DNA of 64,000 nt from Rhizobium sp. 007 (GTDB lineage Bacteria > Pseudomonadota > Alphaproteobacteria > Rhizobiales > Rhizobiaceae). Position numbers and translations under genes: made by a program. Below, in pieces: positions 1 through 8,292 of this stretch (the stretch's first letter is position 1; each line of letters opens with the position of its first letter). The DNA lies in contig NZ_CP064187.1 in the NCBI RefSeq assembly GCF_015353075.1, positions 4,099,001-4,163,000 on the forward strand, given 5' to 3'. The notes under the pieces were generated by a model. That model ran no database searches and had not been told where the DNA came from. It saw only the letters and a program-made list of their open reading frames with translations.

Positions 1-206
1 TTCACGTTTTTCGGCTAGATATTTCTGTATAAACACAAAAATAACGATTTTAATTCAGAAATTCCAGGATTTTGACTTAAATTGAAGCAATACGCCACTG
101 TGATGTATCAAACTAATATTTGCGAATTAATCGAATATTTTCAGTTGGCGCCTCATTGTTCGGGCTGCGATCAACACCGATTGCTTTCGAACCGAGGAGA
201 TGGAGC

Positions 207-299
207 ATGCAGAAGAAGAGCAAGCCGAACCTTAAGGTTACCGCAGCCAAGGCTAAGCCGACTTTTGTCAGCCGCGGCATGATGTTCCGCATCGATTAA
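207..299 (+). CDS. 30-residue peptide, candidate RiPP precursor
   Basis: The ATG lies 7 bases after a good AGGAG ribosome binding site at 195-199, and the frame runs 30 codons to TAA. The peptide is very basic: lysines dominate the N-terminal half, and the end reads KPTFVSRGMMFRID. It has no Cys, two Ser and two Thr, and no signal peptide. It sits directly in front of a SagB-type dehydrogenase with a hairpin terminator between them, as expected when a precursor peptide is made in excess of its modifying enzyme. From memory, rhizobial genomes carry short peptides with a similar K-P-x-(L/F)-x-x-R-G part annotated as putative RiPP precursors; I could not check this. That the enzyme acts on the peptide is inference. 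Confidence 0.6.
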   Translation: MQKKSKPNLKVTAAKAKPTFVSRGMMFRID

Positions 300-307
300 G
301 CGATGAG

Positions 308-344
308 ATGCCTGCCGCGCGAATGAGTTGCGGCGGGCATTTTT
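308..344 (+). terminator. hairpin terminator/attenuator between peptide gene and dehydrogenase gene
   Basis: An 11-bp stem (308-318 pairing with 330-340, one G-T wobble) is followed at once by a T-run at 340-344. It starts 9 bases after the peptide stop codon. Possible upstream starts of the dehydrogenase at 308 and 323 fall inside this hairpin, which favours ATG 350. It probably lets some transcription through to the enzyme gene. Confidence 0.75.
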
Positions 345-349
345 CTGCG

Positions 350-1393
350 ATGCGCTATCGTTCCTCCCGCACGCTCGTCTTCCATAATGATGGTGCCGAG
401 TTCGTAGCCTGTAATTTCCTCACCAAGGCTGTCTTCGAGTGCAGTCCGGACCTTCTGGATTTTTTGGGCGCTATTGCCGAGTGGAGTGATCGCGCCGCGA
501 TCCGCGATCAAGCGCCCGGCCATAGTGAGGACGAACTCGATGAAACGCTTGTGGCGCTTGTCGAGATGTCCGCACTCGTCGTCGAAGGATCCGAACTTGA
601 GATGCGAGAGGACGCCTTCCGTCAGCATTGGAAGTGGGGCGTGCCCGCCGCCCTGATGCATTTTTGCGTTCAGGACCCCGATTACATGTCCCTTAATGAG
701 GCCGAAGATCTGCAGCGCGCTGCGCTCGCAAGCGATGGCGAGATCGAGCTCTACAGCCTCAATTCGGGGCAAGGCGATGTCATTTCGTTATCCGCCGAAC
801 CCTCCGGAAATTCCTTGCTGGAGCTGATGGCGAGGCGGCGGACTCAACGCAAGGGCCTTACGAAAGCCGTGTCATTGCACGCGCTCTCCGAAGCGCTTTT
901 CGCAGGCCTTGGGATTACAGGTACTGCACGAAATTCGGTGGTGACGCTGCCGCTGTCGATGACACCGTCCGGCGGCGCACGCAACCCTTATGAAGCCTAT
1001 GTTTTTGTGAAGGCGGTCGACGGGCTGGCGCCAGGAATCTATCACTATTCGGCCTTCGAGCATTCGCTGGCAAAGATATCGGACGCTTCGCCCTCTTTCG
1101 GCGATCTGGTGGGCGGCCAGGAGTGGGCGGATACCATGCCCTGCATGATCGTACTCGTTGCCCATATGGACCGCAGCATGTGGAAATATAGCGATGCCAA
1201 CGCCTACCGCGTGGTTTTGATCGAGGCCGGGCACATTGGGCAAAACATCATGCTTTCGGCCACGGCGCACGGCATGACGGCTTGCCCAACCGCGGCTCTG
1301 AGCCATACGCGGATAGGCGAATTGGTTGGTCTGCGCAATCCTGCTCATGCGCCGATCTACGCACTGACGCTTGGTTTCCCTGACGTAGCGTAA
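350..1393 (+). CDS. SagB-type FMN-dependent dehydrogenase with N-terminal RRE-like domain
   Basis: This 347-residue protein has a C-terminal nitroreductase-fold domain of the SagB/ThcOx type (about residues 150-347). Visible features are the basic RRRTQRKG stretch expected to contact FMN, the PSGGARNPYEAYV motif, and APGIYHY. Family members oxidise azolines to azoles in modified peptides. The first 110 residues resemble a PqqD-like RiPP recognition element: a small winged-helix pattern ending in ALVEMSALVVEGS. No YcaO cyclodehydratase is visible in the window, so the substrate chemistry is unknown. The start at 350 is chosen because upstream ATGs at 308 and 323 lie within a terminator hairpin; its ribosome binding site is weak. 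The family call is firm; the role on the neighbouring peptide is inferred. Confidence 0.8.
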   Translation: MRYRSSRTLVFHNDGAEFVACNFLTKAVFECSPDLLDFLGAIAEWSDRAAIRDQAPGHSEDELDETLVALVEMSALVVEGSELEMREDAFRQHWKWGVPAALMHFCVQDPDYMSLNEAEDLQRAALASDGEIELYSLNSGQGDVISLSAEPSGNSLLELMARRRTQRKGLTKAVSLHALSEALFAGLGITGTARNSVVTLPLSMTPSGGARNPYEAYVFVKAVDGLAPGIYHYSAFEHSLAKISDASPSFGDLVGGQEWADTMPCMIVLVAHMDRSMWKYSDANAYRVVLIEAGHIGQNIMLSATAHGMTACPTAALSHTRIGELVGLRNPAHAPIYALTLGFPDVA

Positions 1394-2944: not shown

Positions 2945-3158
2945 GTGGCGCTGGGCGGAACGATTGTTTCCAAGGGCCCGTATCGCTTCTTGCGCTATCC
3001 GAACTATGTTGTCGTGATGGGCGAGATCGCGGCACTCCCACTCGGTTTTGCCACTTTATGCACTTCTGTTTTCCATCGCCAATGCAATCATTGTGACTAT
3101 TCGCGTCAAGGCCGAGAATGCCGCACTTGCAGGATTGTCCCATGCCGAACCGGCTTGA
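2945..3158 (+). pseudogene. isoprenylcysteine carboxyl methyltransferase remnant, truncated and frameshifted
   Basis: The first frame reads VALGGTIVSKGPYRFLRYPN and then VVVMGEIAALPLG, typical of the membrane methyltransferase (ICMT) family C-terminal half (GPYRxxRHPNY motif). Near base 3050 the homology jumps to another frame: LYALLFSIANAIIVTIR, then AENAALAGLSHAEPA and a stop at 3156-3158. The N-terminal half is missing, so this is a dead fragment. Its original stop overlaps the start of the following MFS gene by 17 bases, as in a former operon. Confidence 0.7.
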
Positions 3159-4689
3159 TTCTGATCTTACCGATCGCCGCCAGAGCGTCATTTGGATCGG
3201 TTTCTTCGCCATGTGCATCGGCATGTTTATGGCGATCTTGGATGTGCAAGTTGTGGCGACGTCGTTGCCAACGATCCAGGCTGCTCTCGACATCGATCCC
3301 GAGCAGATGAGCTGGATTCAGACCGTCTATCTGATTGCCGAGGTAGTCGCCATCCCGTTAACCGGGTTCCTGACGCGTTTTCTCACCATGCGATGGCTGT
3401 TCGTGACGTCGCTGGTCCTGTTCGTGATCGCGTCGGCGGGGTGTGCGATCAGCAGCGGCTTCCGTGAACTCGTCGCCTGGCGGGTTCTGCAGGGCTTTTC
3501 AGGCGGAACGCTGATACCCGCTGTCTTCTCGGCGGTGTTCATTCTGTTTCCAAACGAGCGCCAAGCCCTTGCCACGACCATTGCCGGCGTTCTTGCCGTC
3601 CTCGCTCCGACTGTCGGGCCGATTGTCGGTGGCTGGCTGACAGAGACCTACTCCTGGCATTGGCTTTTTTTGATCAATATCATTCCTGGAATTCTTGCCG
3701 CTCTTGTTGCAATGCGATCGCTCCCTCAAGAGCGCGTCGACGTCTGGGAACTTCGCGGGCTTGACGGGGTTGGATTGGTCACGATGGCCGTCGCTCTGAT
3801 TACGCTGGAGCTTGGATTGAAGGAAGCGCCCACGAGCGGCTGGATGTCAGCATATGACAGTGGCCTGTTCGCCGTCTCAGCCCTATCAGCATTGGCATTC
3901 ATATGGCGATCGCTCCACCGGGCCCGGCCGTTGGTAGAGCTTCATAATTTCCAAGATCGAAACTTTATGGTGGGCTCGACGCTAAGCTTCATCCTCGGCT
4001 TCGGTCTATTCGGTTCTGTCTATCTGATGCCTGTGTTTCTGGCCTTTGTCAGAGGACATAACGCATTCGAAATCGGTATGACAATGCTCGTAACCGGCAT
4101 CGCGCAATTATGTACAGCGCCAATTGCTGTTGCGCTCGAAAAGCGAATGGACCCCCGCCTGCTGTCCGCGGTCGGCTTCGCGCTCTTTGCAATCGGCATC
4201 GGTATGAGTGCTTCGCAAAACCCTCGCTCAGATTATGACGCAATGTTCTGGCCACAGATCATAAGAGGCGTCTCCATCATGTTTTGCCTTCTGCCGCCGA
4301 CCCGTCTGGCGCTCGGCACGCTGCCGCCCGAGCGTGTTCCAGATGCAAGTGGTCTGTTCAATTTGATGCGAAACCTTGGCGGCGCAATTGGGATCGCGCT
4401 CATCGATACCATACTATATACCCGCTCGGAGCCGCTTGGACAAAAGCTCTGGGATCGCTTGCAGGCAGGGAATTTGGAGGCTGCCGAGTTCATCGGCGCG
4501 CCGGCCCAGATCGTTGCCGGCCACACTGGCGCTTTTGATGCGGACACGACAGCAATATTGAACCCCCTTGTTCAGACCGCGGCAACCGTCCAAGCGCTCA
4601 ACGAAGCGTGGATGATGGTCGCAATCATCACGGCATGCGCTGTCATATGCCTCCCTTTTGCAAAGCCTGTTTTGCCGACGCAGTCGTGA
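3142..4689 (+). CDS. DHA2-family (EmrB/QacA-type) MFS efflux transporter
   Basis: This 515-residue inner-membrane protein has about 14 hydrophobic segments. The first helix contains ILDVQVVATSLPTIQ (DHA2 motif with LDxxVVxxALP pattern). Motif C is seen as APTVGPIVGGWLTE, and the loop RFLTMRWLF follows helix 2. These are proton-driven drug or metabolite exporters. ATG 3142 is chosen because it overlaps the end of the ICMT remnant and matches where the conserved N-terminus begins; a start at 3118 would add 8 residues. Substrate cannot be told. In related genomes, from memory, such MFS genes can follow ICMT genes in polyketide-type operons. Confidence 0.85.
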   Translation: MPNRLDSDLTDRRQSVIWIGFFAMCIGMFMAILDVQVVATSLPTIQAALDIDPEQMSWIQTVYLIAEVVAIPLTGFLTRFLTMRWLFVTSLVLFVIASAGCAISSGFRELVAWRVLQGFSGGTLIPAVFSAVFILFPNERQALATTIAGVLAVLAPTVGPIVGGWLTETYSWHWLFLINIIPGILAALVAMRSLPQERVDVWELRGLDGVGLVTMAVALITLELGLKEAPTSGWMSAYDSGLFAVSALSALAFIWRSLHRARPLVELHNFQDRNFMVGSTLSFILGFGLFGSVYLMPVFLAFVRGHNAFEIGMTMLVTGIAQLCTAPIAVALEKRMDPRLLSAVGFALFAIGIGMSASQNPRSDYDAMFWPQIIRGVSIMFCLLPPTRLALGTLPPERVPDASGLFNLMRNLGGAIGIALIDTILYTRSEPLGQKLWDRLQAGNLEAAEFIGAPAQIVAGHTGAFDADTTAILNPLVQTAATVQALNEAWMMVAIITACAVICLPFAKPVLPTQS

Positions 4690-5073: not shown

Positions 5074-6216
5074 TTATCCCTCGAAGAATTCCTTCATGCG
5101 CGCAAAAAAGCCTGTCGATTCCGGGTTGTTCTCCTTCGAGGAAAGCTGCTCGAACTCCTGGAGCAGTTCGCGCTGCCGCTTCGAGAGCTTTTGTGGCGTC
5201 TCGATCTGGATCTGGATGTAGAGATCGCCCGTCTGGCTGGAACGCAGCACCGGCATGCCCTTGCCCTTGAGGCGGAACTGCTTGCCGGCCTGTGTGCCTT
5301 CCGGAACGGTGACCCGCGACTTCGTGCCGTCGAGCGTCGCCACATCGAAAGTGCCGCCGAGCGCTGCCGTCGTCATCGAGATCGGAACGGCGCAATAGAG
5401 GTCGGCTCCATCGCGCTGATAGAATTCGTGCGGCTTCACCGACAGGAAGATATAGAGATCGCCCGCCGGTCCGCCGCGCGCGCCGGCCTCGCCTTCGCCC
5501 TGCAAGCGGATGCGCGTGCCATCTTCGATACCAGCCGGAATATTGACCGAGAGCGAACGCTCTTCTGTTACGCGGCCCTGGCCATGGCACTTGGGGCATG
5601 GATCGGGAATGATCTGGCCGCGGCCATGACAGGTCGGGCAGGTTCGTTCGATCGAGAAAAAGCCCTGCGCCGCGCGAACGCGGCCGGAGCCCTGACAGGT
5701 GCCGCAGGTTTTCGGTTGCGTGCCGGGCTTGGCGCCGGAACCCGAGCACATATCGCAAGTGATCGAGGTTGGAACACGAATCTGCGCCGTCTTGCCGGAG
5801 AAGGCCTCTTCCAGCGAAATTTCCATATTGTAGCGAAGGTCGGCGCCACGCTCGCGTCCGCCCGATGAGCGCTGCCGTCCCCGGCCACCACCCATCATCT
5901 CGCCGAATATGTCTTCGAAGATGTCGGAGAAGCCGCCGCCACCGGCGAAGCCCGCACCGCCGCCGAAGCCGCCAGCACCCATGCCGCCATGCTCGAAGGC
6001 TGCGTGACCATAACGGTCGTAGGCCGCACGCTTCTGCGGGTCCTTCAGCGTTTCATAGGCTTCGTTGATTTCCTTGAATTTGATTTCGGCGCTCTTATCG
6101 TCCGGGTTCTTGTCCGGATGATATTTCATTGCCAGTTTGCGGAAGGCGCTTTTCAGCTCTTTTTCATCCGCCGTTTTGGCGACGCCCAGAGTTTCGTAAA
6201 AGTCCGCTTTTGCCAA
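5074..6216 (-). CDS. dnaJ: chaperone protein DnaJ
   Basis: This 380-residue Hsp40 co-chaperone stimulates the DnaK ATPase and delivers substrates in the cytoplasm. The J-domain (residues 1-70) holds YHPDKNPDD with the HPD motif. A Gly/Phe-rich linker follows, rich in GGAGFGG-type repeats. Four CxxCxGxG zinc-binding repeats occupy about residues 145-215 ([32 protein letters not shown]), then the C-terminal substrate domains. Full family length. The start codon is TTG, with GGGG six bases upstream in a structured intergenic segment. It is the second gene of the dnaK operon. Confidence 0.97.
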
Positions 6217-6224
6217 TTTAAACC

Positions 6225-6261
6225 CCGGAAATGGATTTCCGGCTGCCCTCGGGCAGCCGGA
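6225..6261 (-). promoter_or_regulatory. two overlapping, mutually exclusive hairpins in the dnaK-dnaJ spacer
   Basis: One inverted repeat is CCGGAAAT (6225-6232) with ATTTCCGG (6235-6242). The other is an 11-base TCCGGCTGCCC (6238-6248) with GGGCAGCCGGA (6251-6261). They share bases 6238-6242, so only one can form at a time. The first one covers part of the GGGG ribosome binding site of dnaJ, which has a TTG start. Confidence 0.55.
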
Positions 6262-6294
6262 TTGCAGTGTTTAGCATAACCGCTTCGCCGCGGA

Positions 6295-8205
6295 TTATGC
6301 GGACTTCTTGCGGTCGTCGTCCTTGACTTCTTCGTAGTCGGCATCAACGACATTGTCATCACCTGCCGAAGCATCTGCCGTACCGGCTTCCGCCTGCTGG
6401 GCTTCGTAGATCGCCTGACCGAGCTTCATGGACACTTCCATGAGGGTCTGCGTCTTCGCCTTGATATCCTCGGCGTCCGGGTCGGTCGCCTCGGCTGCAG
6501 ACTTCAGAGCCGCAATCGCATCGGAGATCGCGGTGCGGTCGGCCTCGGAAACCTTGTCACCGTAATCCTTCAGCGATTTTTCCGTCGAGTGAACCAGGCT
6601 TTCGGCTTGGTTCTTGGCCTCCACGGTTTCGCGGCGCTTCTTGTCTTCCGAGGCATGCGATTCTGCATCCTTGACCATCTTTTCGATGTCGGCGTCCGAA
6701 AGGCCGCCGGAAGCCTGGATGCGGATCTGCTGTTCCTTGCCGGTACCCTTGTCCTTGGCCGAAACCTGCACGATGCCGTTCGCGTCGATATCGAAGGTAA
6801 CTTCAATCTGCGGAACGCCGCGCGGCGCCGGCGGCAGGCCGACGAGGTCGAACTGGCCGAGCAGCTTGTTGTCGGCAGCCATTTCGCGCTCGCCCTGCGA
6901 AACACGGATGGTGACGGCCTGCTGGTTGTCATCGGCAGTCGAGAAAGTCTGCGACTTCTTGGTCGGGATCGTCGTGTTGCGCTCGATCAGACGGGTGAAG
7001 ACGCCACCGAGGGTTTCGATGCCCAGAGACAGCGGGGTCACGTCGAGCAGCAGGACGTCCTTGACGTCGCCCTGCAGAACGCCGGCCTGGATGGCAGCGC
7101 CGAGCGCAACGACTTCATCCGGATTGACGCCCTTGTGCGGCTCCTTGCCGAACAGCTGCTTGACGACTTCCTGAACCTTCGGCATGCGGCTCATACCACC
7201 GACGAGAACGACTTCATCGATCTCAGCCGGGGTGACGCCGGCATCCTTGAGGGCTGCCTTGCACGGCGCGATCGTGCGCTGCACGAGGTCGTCGACCAGG
7301 CTTTCAAGCTTGGCGCGCGTCAGCTTCAGCGTAAGGTGCTTCGGGCCGGAAGCGTCAGCCGTGATGAAGGGCAGGTTGATTTCGGTCTGCTGCGAGGACG
7401 AGAGCTCGATCTTGGCCTTTTCGGCAGCTTCCTTCAGGCGCTGCAGTGCGAGCTTGTCGTTCTTGAGGTCGATGCCGTTGTCCTTCTTGAACTCTGCAAC
7501 GAGGTATTCGACGAGACGCATGTCGAAGTCTTCACCGCCGAGGAAGGTGTCGCCGTTGGTGGACTTCACTTCGAAGACGCCGTCACCGATTTCGAGGATC
7601 GAAATATCGAAGGTACCGCCGCCAAGGTCGTAGACGGCAATCGTCTTGCCTTCCTTTTTGTCAAGCCCGTAAGCGAGGGCCGCTGCGGTCGGCTCGTTGA
7701 TGATACGCAGAACCTCAAGACCCGCGATCTTGCCAGCATCCTTGGTTGCCTGGCGCTGCGCGTCGTTAAAGTATGCCGGAACCGTGATGACGGCCTTCTC
7801 GACTTTTTCACCGAGGTAGGATTCAGCCGTTTCCTTCATCTTCTGAAGGATCATCGCGGAGACCTGCGCGGGCGAATAGCCCTTGCCATTGGCTTCGACC
7901 CAAGCATCGCCATTGTCACCCTTCGAAATACTGAAAGGGACAAGACCCTTGTCCTTCTCGACGGTCGGATCTTCGTAGCGGCGGCCGATCAGGCGCTTGA
8001 CGGCAAAGAGCGTATTCGTCGGATTGGTGACGGCCTGGCGTTTTGCCGGCTGGCCGACAAGGCGTTCGCCGTCGTCGGTAAATGCTACCATGGAAGGAGT
8101 CGTGCGCGCGCCTTCCGCGTTCTCAATGACCTTCGCGTCCTTGCCGTCCATGACAGCGACGCAGGAATTTGTCGTTCCGAGGTCGATACCAATTACTTTT
8201 GCCAT
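6295..8205 (-). CDS. dnaK: chaperone protein DnaK (Hsp70)
   Basis: This 636-residue ATP-dependent chaperone is of full length. The N-terminus reads [20 protein letters not shown] (phosphate 1 motif); the actin-like ATPase runs to about residue 385 with [26 protein letters not shown] and [10 protein letters not shown]. The linker [19 protein letters not shown] precedes the substrate domain and helical lid; the tail is acidic. ATG 8205 has AAGGAG at 8-base spacing. It is followed by dnaJ in one operon and preceded by a heat-shock type promoter. Confidence 0.98.
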
Positions 8206-8292
8206 GTCATTTACTCCTTGAAGCAAGCTGTCGGAACCCCGAGAAGGCGTTTCCCTGACAGCCCCTTACGGGATGTGGGTCTTCGGAATTAA

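Follow-up and report, generated by a model that had tools for sequence, protein, structure and literature searches.

The window, the whole stretch of 64,000 nucleotides analysed here (G000:C1:4099001-4163000, Rhizobium sp. 007), begins 206 bases 5' of a small open reading frame (ORF) that opens with ATG and encodes a basic peptide of 30 codons. The gene for a SagB-type FMN dehydrogenase lies behind it on the same strand (Table 1). An earlier inspection of the DNA, referred to here as the sequence-only reading, had picked out this peptide with its ribosome binding site and the dehydrogenase that follows, and both identifications stand. GGAGA is kept at the Shine-Dalgarno site in six aligned Rhizobium-type upstream regions. 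Farther upstream, AATATTTGCGAATTAATCGAATATTT at window 115-140 forms an imperfect palindrome that is mostly kept in six Rhizobium-type loci and, judged by its sequence, is a candidate operator before the peptide gene.

Table 1. Features of the peptide and SagB genes, in window coordinates
Feature	Position	Strand	Basis
Shine-Dalgarno-like GAGGAG	194..199	+	7 bases 5' of peptide ATG; read in sequence
Precursor peptide gene, 30 aa, MQKKSKPNLKVTAAKAKPTFVSRGMMFRID	207..299, stop included	+	Conservation before SagB, pN/pS, co-occurrence
Presumed leader stretch KPNLKVT	222..242	+	Comparable hydrophobic stretches in other peptides
Presumed core PTFVSRGMMFRID; Gly24 = -7, Phe27 = -4 from C-terminus	258..296	+	Column counts, 30 peptides
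Phe27 codon, proposed dehydrogenation site (inferred)	285..287	+	F/Y/L class kept in 30/30 peptides
Hairpin, 12-bp stem 308-319/329-340, then TTTT	308..344	+	Between peptide stop and SagB start
SagB-type FMN dehydrogenase, 347 aa	350..1393	+	TIGR03605, predicted fold, structural matches
N-terminal RRE-like winged-helix domain	350..589 (~residues 1-80)	+	Predicted fold
Nitroreductase/SagB catalytic domain	809..1390 (~residues 154-347)	+	
Lys279-Tyr280, Lys-Tyr motif	1184..1189	+	Alignment

The enzyme scores 103 bits against NCBIfam TIGR03605, above the cut-off of 78.4, and has a Pfam nitroreductase match. Its predicted model (pLDDT 92.8) has the nitroreductase fold which, together with the Lys-Tyr motif, marks the SagB type, and the structural matches of the model are ThcOx, BmdC and McbC. 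The motif is invariant in 80/80 aligned sequences, 17 of which come from loci recruited by sequence patterns, one pattern itself holding WKY. For azole-forming dehydrogenases, the Lys-Tyr motif has been proposed as general base (PMC11055893). The ORF can also open at 308. Of 18 relatives aligned at their starts, with the window row cut at 350, 16 have as first residue the Met of codon 350, and two, P0094 and P0102, extend farther. Because the relatives start there and 308-340 are taken up by the hairpin, 350-1393 is preferred as the SagB gene, a correction to the sequence-only reading.

The N-terminal domain of SagB looks RRE-like in the model, as had been suspected from the sequence. Its predicted order of strands and helices is the PqqD-like winged-helix topology of RRE domains, and BmdC, for which an N-terminal RRE-like domain has been published, aligns with the model from residue 1, over 299 residues in all. 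Profile-profile comparison of the domain returns PqqD at 28.8% probability, which is weak but above controls. A Pfam scan of the domain in 28 members gave single-member chance matches only and no RRE; among the fold-search matches listed, which are dominated by the nitroreductase domain, there is no stand-alone PqqD/RRE chain, an absence that is uninformative.

Conservation of the pair and of the presumed core

A protein search found 1592 relatives at E<=0.001 and listed 120 of them. The locus set comprises 85 stretches (70 from a genome-contig scan, 14 added to these, and that of the window), with a median of ~6 kb of sequence ahead of the SagB start and ~7 kb behind it. It includes duplicates, for example L111/L057, L114/L062 and L117/L070, each pair from one genome. 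Recruitment of the 70 contig-scan loci relied on a pair of short patterns that includes MWKYxD[AP]N, which biases these loci towards keeping that motif. A profile built from 29 family peptides, some of them from the loci scored, reaches at least 12 bits in upstream same-strand ORFs of 74/85 loci (60/70 of the contig-scan loci) and in 0/85 in control frames (opposite strand, and downstream on either strand; best 5.3 bits). Since the profile had been built from some of the peptides it scored, a left-out test was run in which rows >60% identical to each locus's own peptide were removed. It still gave at least 10 bits in 68/85 loci and at least 12 in 63/85, with controls at 5.6 or lower. The peptide frame had been expected to be conserved beside SagB homologues, and these counts bear that out. 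Eleven loci have no match to the full profile (L064, L066, L067, L068, L071, L073, L075, L077, L078, L081 and L113); they stand at 36-40% identity, except L081, which is a partial match, and L075 has only 200 bases of upstream sequence. The left-out profile additionally loses L047, L057, L059, L062, L111 and L114 (below 8 bits).

The peptide frame gives a pN/pS of 0.12 for six Rhizobium-type sequences and, for 30 distinct ones of the Mesorhizobium type, 0.22, against values >1.5 in shifted frames (counted on single-difference codons). Judged by these substitutions, the frame is under purifying selection.

Co-occurrence was followed in a sample of 397 genomes of the order. Of these, 36 carry a SagB-like match at E<=0.001: in 13 it is strong, at E 8.7e-74 or lower, and in the other 23 weak or partial (best 5.3e-25). 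The peptide profile matches 14 genomes at E<=1e-3, namely the 13 with strong SagB and G397, and the next E is 0.0186; several of the 14, or near-identical genomes, gave profile rows, which makes their matches partly a matter of construction, and G397 gave none. G397 (98% complete) carries a regulator of the kind described below and a family peptide, MTKTVKKPNLAVTAIAPKKAGAFIRPGMHYRPE. SagB does not adjoin them, and the assembly as a whole gave no match to it at E<=0.001, so the peptide may act unmodified there or SagB was lost. The gene after this peptide (L119, G397:C55) resembles an adenylate/guanylate cyclase by eye. The unit is patchy in the window's own genus: among 37 genomes, the window genome and G016 have a close form, G002 has a distant SagB (36%), and G012 and G017 show weaker matches. 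Nine candidate stretches came out of a pattern scan of viral contigs, none of them confirmed as viral carriage. The loci show one mark of a RiPP, a precursor gene adjacent to a modifying-type enzyme and conserved together with it.

Columns were counted in 30 peptides, the 29 chosen for the family alignment and that of G397. Near-identical Mesorhizobium peptides were mostly left out of the 30, and the HFSR end, shorter by one residue, was anchored on its Phe. Position -4 (Y 14, F 13, L 3) is the only one at which a residue class is kept in 30/30 tabulated peptides. Gly occupies -7 in 24/30, Lys -2 in 23/30 and Phe -11 in 18/30, and -3 is mixed (N 16, R 6, D 5). None of the last 15 positions forms a conserved Cys, Ser or Thr column; the window peptide lacks Cys, as had been read from its sequence, and Cys occurs in 4/30 family peptides. 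Hydrophobic stretches like KPNLKVT recur, by eye, in the N-terminal half of many aligned peptides.

Some of the more distant SagB relatives are preceded by repeat or long precursors, which are ORFs as read here and not annotated genes. RIVF-type units occur five times in L066 and four times in L071, RMPYAAGAM-type units four times in L068, and RMLWATGSA three times in L073, with one aromatic residue per unit in all four precursors. Such repetition of the core ahead of an enzyme gene is typical of RiPPs. These four loci are from Caulobacteraceae-type MAGs, and CHASE2 histidine kinases lie upstream in L066 and L068. Long ORFs before SagB contain GYNKA (L064), RYNKA (L067) and GMNKS (L113), comparable with the [FYL]-N-K ends of the short peptides; L064 and L067 are titled Mucilaginibacter and Polaribacter. 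Before the distant SagB of Rhizobium sp. GN54 lies a ~276-aa ORF (L078:5105-5932) with many AMHHP/AMHHS repeats, possibly, by its sequence, a multi-core precursor.

Intergenic hairpin, regulator and other neighbours

The hairpin between the two genes has a z of -3.8 in the window. The peptide-to-SagB gap was folded in 47/85 loci with 60 shuffles each, L019 and L064 being too short. To one decimal, z is -2.0 or lower in 35/39 single-core loci (exactly -2.0 in three of the 35), the four exceptions being L041 (-1.9), L058 (-1.3), L061 (-1.9) and L072 (-1.9); among six repeat, long or distant precursors, only that of L113 reached -2. In 29/45 loci the eight bases behind a stem include four or more T, and many stems lack a clean T run. 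Two-sided compensatory changes were found in 5/17 stem pairs among six Rhizobium-type sequences and in 2/12 among 11 Mesorhizobium sequences, and individual pairs are disrupted in part of the sequences. The window hairpin is missing from the output of a consensus terminator scan, its loop of 9 being longer than the 8 that the scan allows. We propose that this element may be a partial terminator or an mRNA stabiliser.

The sequence-only reading had described a minimal two-gene unit, which is too small: a regulator with an HTH and a beta-barrel is encoded upstream in 71/85 loci. In the window's own genome it falls outside the window (L109, C1, ~window -1071 to -268) and combines an XRE-type HTH with a C-terminal domain predicted as an eight-strand beta-barrel. 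The regulator family is wider than the SagB unit, and in 16 regulator-paralogue loci a family peptide is found only in G397, among the downstream small ORFs listed. The gap behind the regulator in the window's genome holds a small ORF of 72 aa (C1, ~window -271 to -53, minus strand), convergent with the regulator; comparable small ORFs occur in this gap in several lineages and also behind the SagB-free regulator paralogues L121, L123 and L129. In G171 (C1:4751922-4752658), the match to the regulator next to SagB falls into two parts that lie in different frames, which looks like a frameshift.

No protease was recognised among the shared neighbour clusters listed. The only adjacent transporter found beside SagB is EamA-like; its gene stands directly behind SagB on the same strand in 7/85 loci (L043, L048, L054, L055, L057, L076 and L111, the last from the genome of L057), ~1.1-2.3 kb after the SagB start, and is known in L055 and L111 by tblastn only. 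From its position, the protein is a possible exporter in some lineages; seven loci are too few for it to count as a fixed part of the unit, and we rejected that idea.

Downstream in the window, a 118-aa HTH_3 protein is encoded just behind SagB (1497-1853), an arrangement shared, among 45 clustered loci, only with L014 and L015. Farther on are a 130-aa protein with a DUF2147 match (2510-2902) and a major-facilitator transporter gene (3118-4689; PF07690, 160.5 bits). DnaJ and DnaK (Hsp70) genes occupy the minus strand at 5074-8226 and lie near the unit in L014 and L015 too.

Proposed reaction and alternative readings

We hypothesize that the unit is a YcaO-free RiPP-type cassette with Calpha-Cbeta dehydrogenation of Phe27 as its leading mechanism, and give this reading as a whole about an even chance. 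Its parts are graded differently. SagB and the peptide very likely form an enzyme-substrate pair, the flavin enzyme very probably oxidising the peptide encoded beside it; that the peptide is modified at all is something we infer. Conservation, co-occurrence, coding selection and the hairpin are seen in the sequences and the fold is predicted, whereas peptide binding, the site, the reaction and every regulatory role are proposals. Given such a pair, we hold with high confidence that the reaction is YcaO-independent, and given both, dehydrogenation at the F/Y/L position would be, by analogy, moderately probable. The observation of a conserved peptide gene before SagB is confirmed, and its RiPP-like interpretation is partly supported.

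The mechanism we propose would begin with the N-terminal half of the peptide (..KPNLKVT..) binding as a strand to the RRE-like domain of SagB. Leader binding would lay the C-terminal half over the FMN, where the Lys-Tyr motif could act as base and the flavin as hydride acceptor. The fourth residue from the C-terminus, which is Phe27 in the window peptide and Tyr, Phe or Leu in others, would lose two hydrogens from Calpha-Cbeta, and the product would be a dehydro-amino acid, lighter by 2 Da. The hairpin after the peptide gene could ensure that more peptide than enzyme is made, and the upstream regulator would control the unit and might sense its product. This reaction leads because there is a precedent in PflD and because the F/Y/L-only position -4 overlaps the Phe and Leu used by AlbAB (both described below). 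A bolder reading is speculative, and we regard it as doubtful: in a one-enzyme RiPP family, a free SagB without a cyclase would convert one Phe, Tyr or Leu near the end of peptides of 25-42 aa to a dehydro-amino acid, and the neighbouring HTH regulator, with its beta-barrel as sensor, would respond inside the cell to the product or to part of it. If true, the product would be an intracellular modified-peptide signal or cofactor, not an antibiotic, and the close link with the regulator makes an intracellular RiPP role testable.

Against our reading, the repeat precursors have cores with ends other than [FYL]-N-K, and in L113 the corresponding place is taken by Met. The F/Y/L position could also be kept for recognition instead of reaction. 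Maturation and export remain unexplained by the unit, given the lack of a protease among the neighbour clusters listed and the small number of loci with an adjacent transporter.

The reading that survives best beside ours keeps the same pair and changes the chemistry: oxidation at the conserved Gly, Asn or Lys, a crosslink, or a small excised product resembling a redox cofactor. We consider this possible but rather unlikely. The Gly at -7 and the Lys at -2 are conserved too, and the scarcity of transporter genes directly beside SagB would suit a product of this kind. Cofactor precursors can be as short as this peptide, PQQ and mycofactocin being excised from short precursors. However, several peptides have other residues in place of Asn and Lys, that of the window with its FRID end among them, whereas the F/Y/L class is kept in 30/30. 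The nearest described YcaO-free reaction yields dehydroPhe (PMC12636437).

It is improbable, in our estimate, that the short frame is instead a regulatory or leader ORF, with the peptide or its translation controlling the hairpin and SagB or acting on the HTH regulator, and with SagB acting elsewhere. The position of the hairpin right behind the peptide, the regulator upstream in most loci, and G397 with peptide and regulator and without SagB would all fit such a role. The amino-acid sequence, however, is conserved far past the closest relatives, distant relatives have repeated-core precursors, and SagB carries an RRE-like domain, all of which speak against such a role.

The absence of a YcaO cyclase nearby had been noted from the sequence, with two explanations: a partner encoded elsewhere or a different oxidation. 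Two YcaO queries from the window genome matched nothing by tblastn in the 85 stretches. A search for PF02624 in 41 genomes with a SagB relative (the genome of L027 was left out) found it in 26, leaving 15 without; G002, G455 and G456, which have distant relatives only, all have YcaO, so the count for single-core genomes is 15/38 without. One of the 15 is G450, the complete Mesorhizobium chromosome that holds L051. The window genome has two YcaO genes on contig C2, and the SagB unit lies on C1. An ordinary azole-forming pathway with a distant cyclase would fit these two genes, the presence of at least one YcaO gene in each of the 26 related genomes, and the TIGR03605 membership of the enzyme. 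Yet the two marks of azole RiPPs (LAP/TOMM) are missing, a YcaO in the cluster from all 85 stretches and a conserved Cys, Ser or Thr in the core from the 30 peptides, and 15/41 genomes have no YcaO to offer. After searches in the window genome, the 41 others and the 85 stretches, we retain this pathway only as a weak and very improbable rival. Of the two explanations, we prefer a different oxidation to a partner elsewhere, because of the genomes without YcaO and because the core keeps no Cys, Ser or Thr. A chance ORF beside an unrelated oxidoreductase can be dismissed: short ORFs are common, and many chance ORFs occur in the same stretch, but the pN/pS values, the absence of any match in the 85 sets of control frames and the matching distribution over 397 genomes rule it out for practical purposes.

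Relation to known systems

The best NCBIfam score of the window SagB, 140.6 bits, is to TIGR04511 (SagB_rel_DH_2, 'putative peptide maturation dehydrogenase') and lies below the cut-off of 240, which places the enzyme outside that family. Seven scanned relatives match it too, at 113-155 bits, all below 240. TIGR04511 goes together with a target-peptide family and a cyclase family. An NCBIfam search with nine precursors and neighbours found no partner of the TIGR04509/TIGR04510 type.

ThcOx, BmdC and McbC share with the window enzyme the FMN nitroreductase fold and a Tyr or Lys-Tyr base, and ThcOx and BmdC also have the N-terminal RRE-like domain. All three oxidise azolines made by a cyclase (for BmdC, by an NRPS), unlike the window unit, which has no cyclase and no conserved Cys, Ser or Thr. 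SagB-like genes at graspetide loci likewise place a SagB-like enzyme in a RiPP locus outside the usual YcaO setting; the main enzyme there is an ATP-grasp ligase (PMC8939145). No ATP-grasp ligase was recognised among the shared neighbour clusters of the window unit. AlbAB dehydrogenates Phe and Leu in a cyclodipeptide and differs in its cyclic dipeptide substrates, its second subunit and its filament (PMC11055893).

The closest parallel for the reaction is PflD of Pseudomonas fluorescens CH267, whose nitroreductase domain makes Z-dehydroPhe in a RiPP; its authors suggest that further nitroreductases working without YcaO may produce different dehydro-amino acids (PMC12636437). Like the window SagB, PflD is a nitroreductase in a YcaO-free cluster, and it dehydrogenates a Phe of its precursor. 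PflD, however, forms one protein with an MNIO, and a HEXXH enzyme, a GNAT and two transporters go with it, whereas the enzyme of the window unit is free, carries an RRE-like domain and stands with a 30-aa peptide and a regulator.

In the literature searched, which was largely open-access, we found no description of the peptide family or of its combination with a free SagB. An enzyme of this family acting without its normal partner would represent a type of peptide modification that has been little explored. Since the unit offers one enzyme, a candidate substrate in plain view and a conserved candidate site that varies naturally between F, Y and L, its chemistry is testable with two short genes. 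If the proposed dehydrogenation is true, the pair would offer a simple tool for placing dehydroPhe, dehydroTyr or dehydroLeu in peptides. The individual parts are of known kinds; what that literature did not describe is the combination of a free SagB with an RRE-like domain, a single-core peptide of 25-42 aa and a regulator, with no YcaO.
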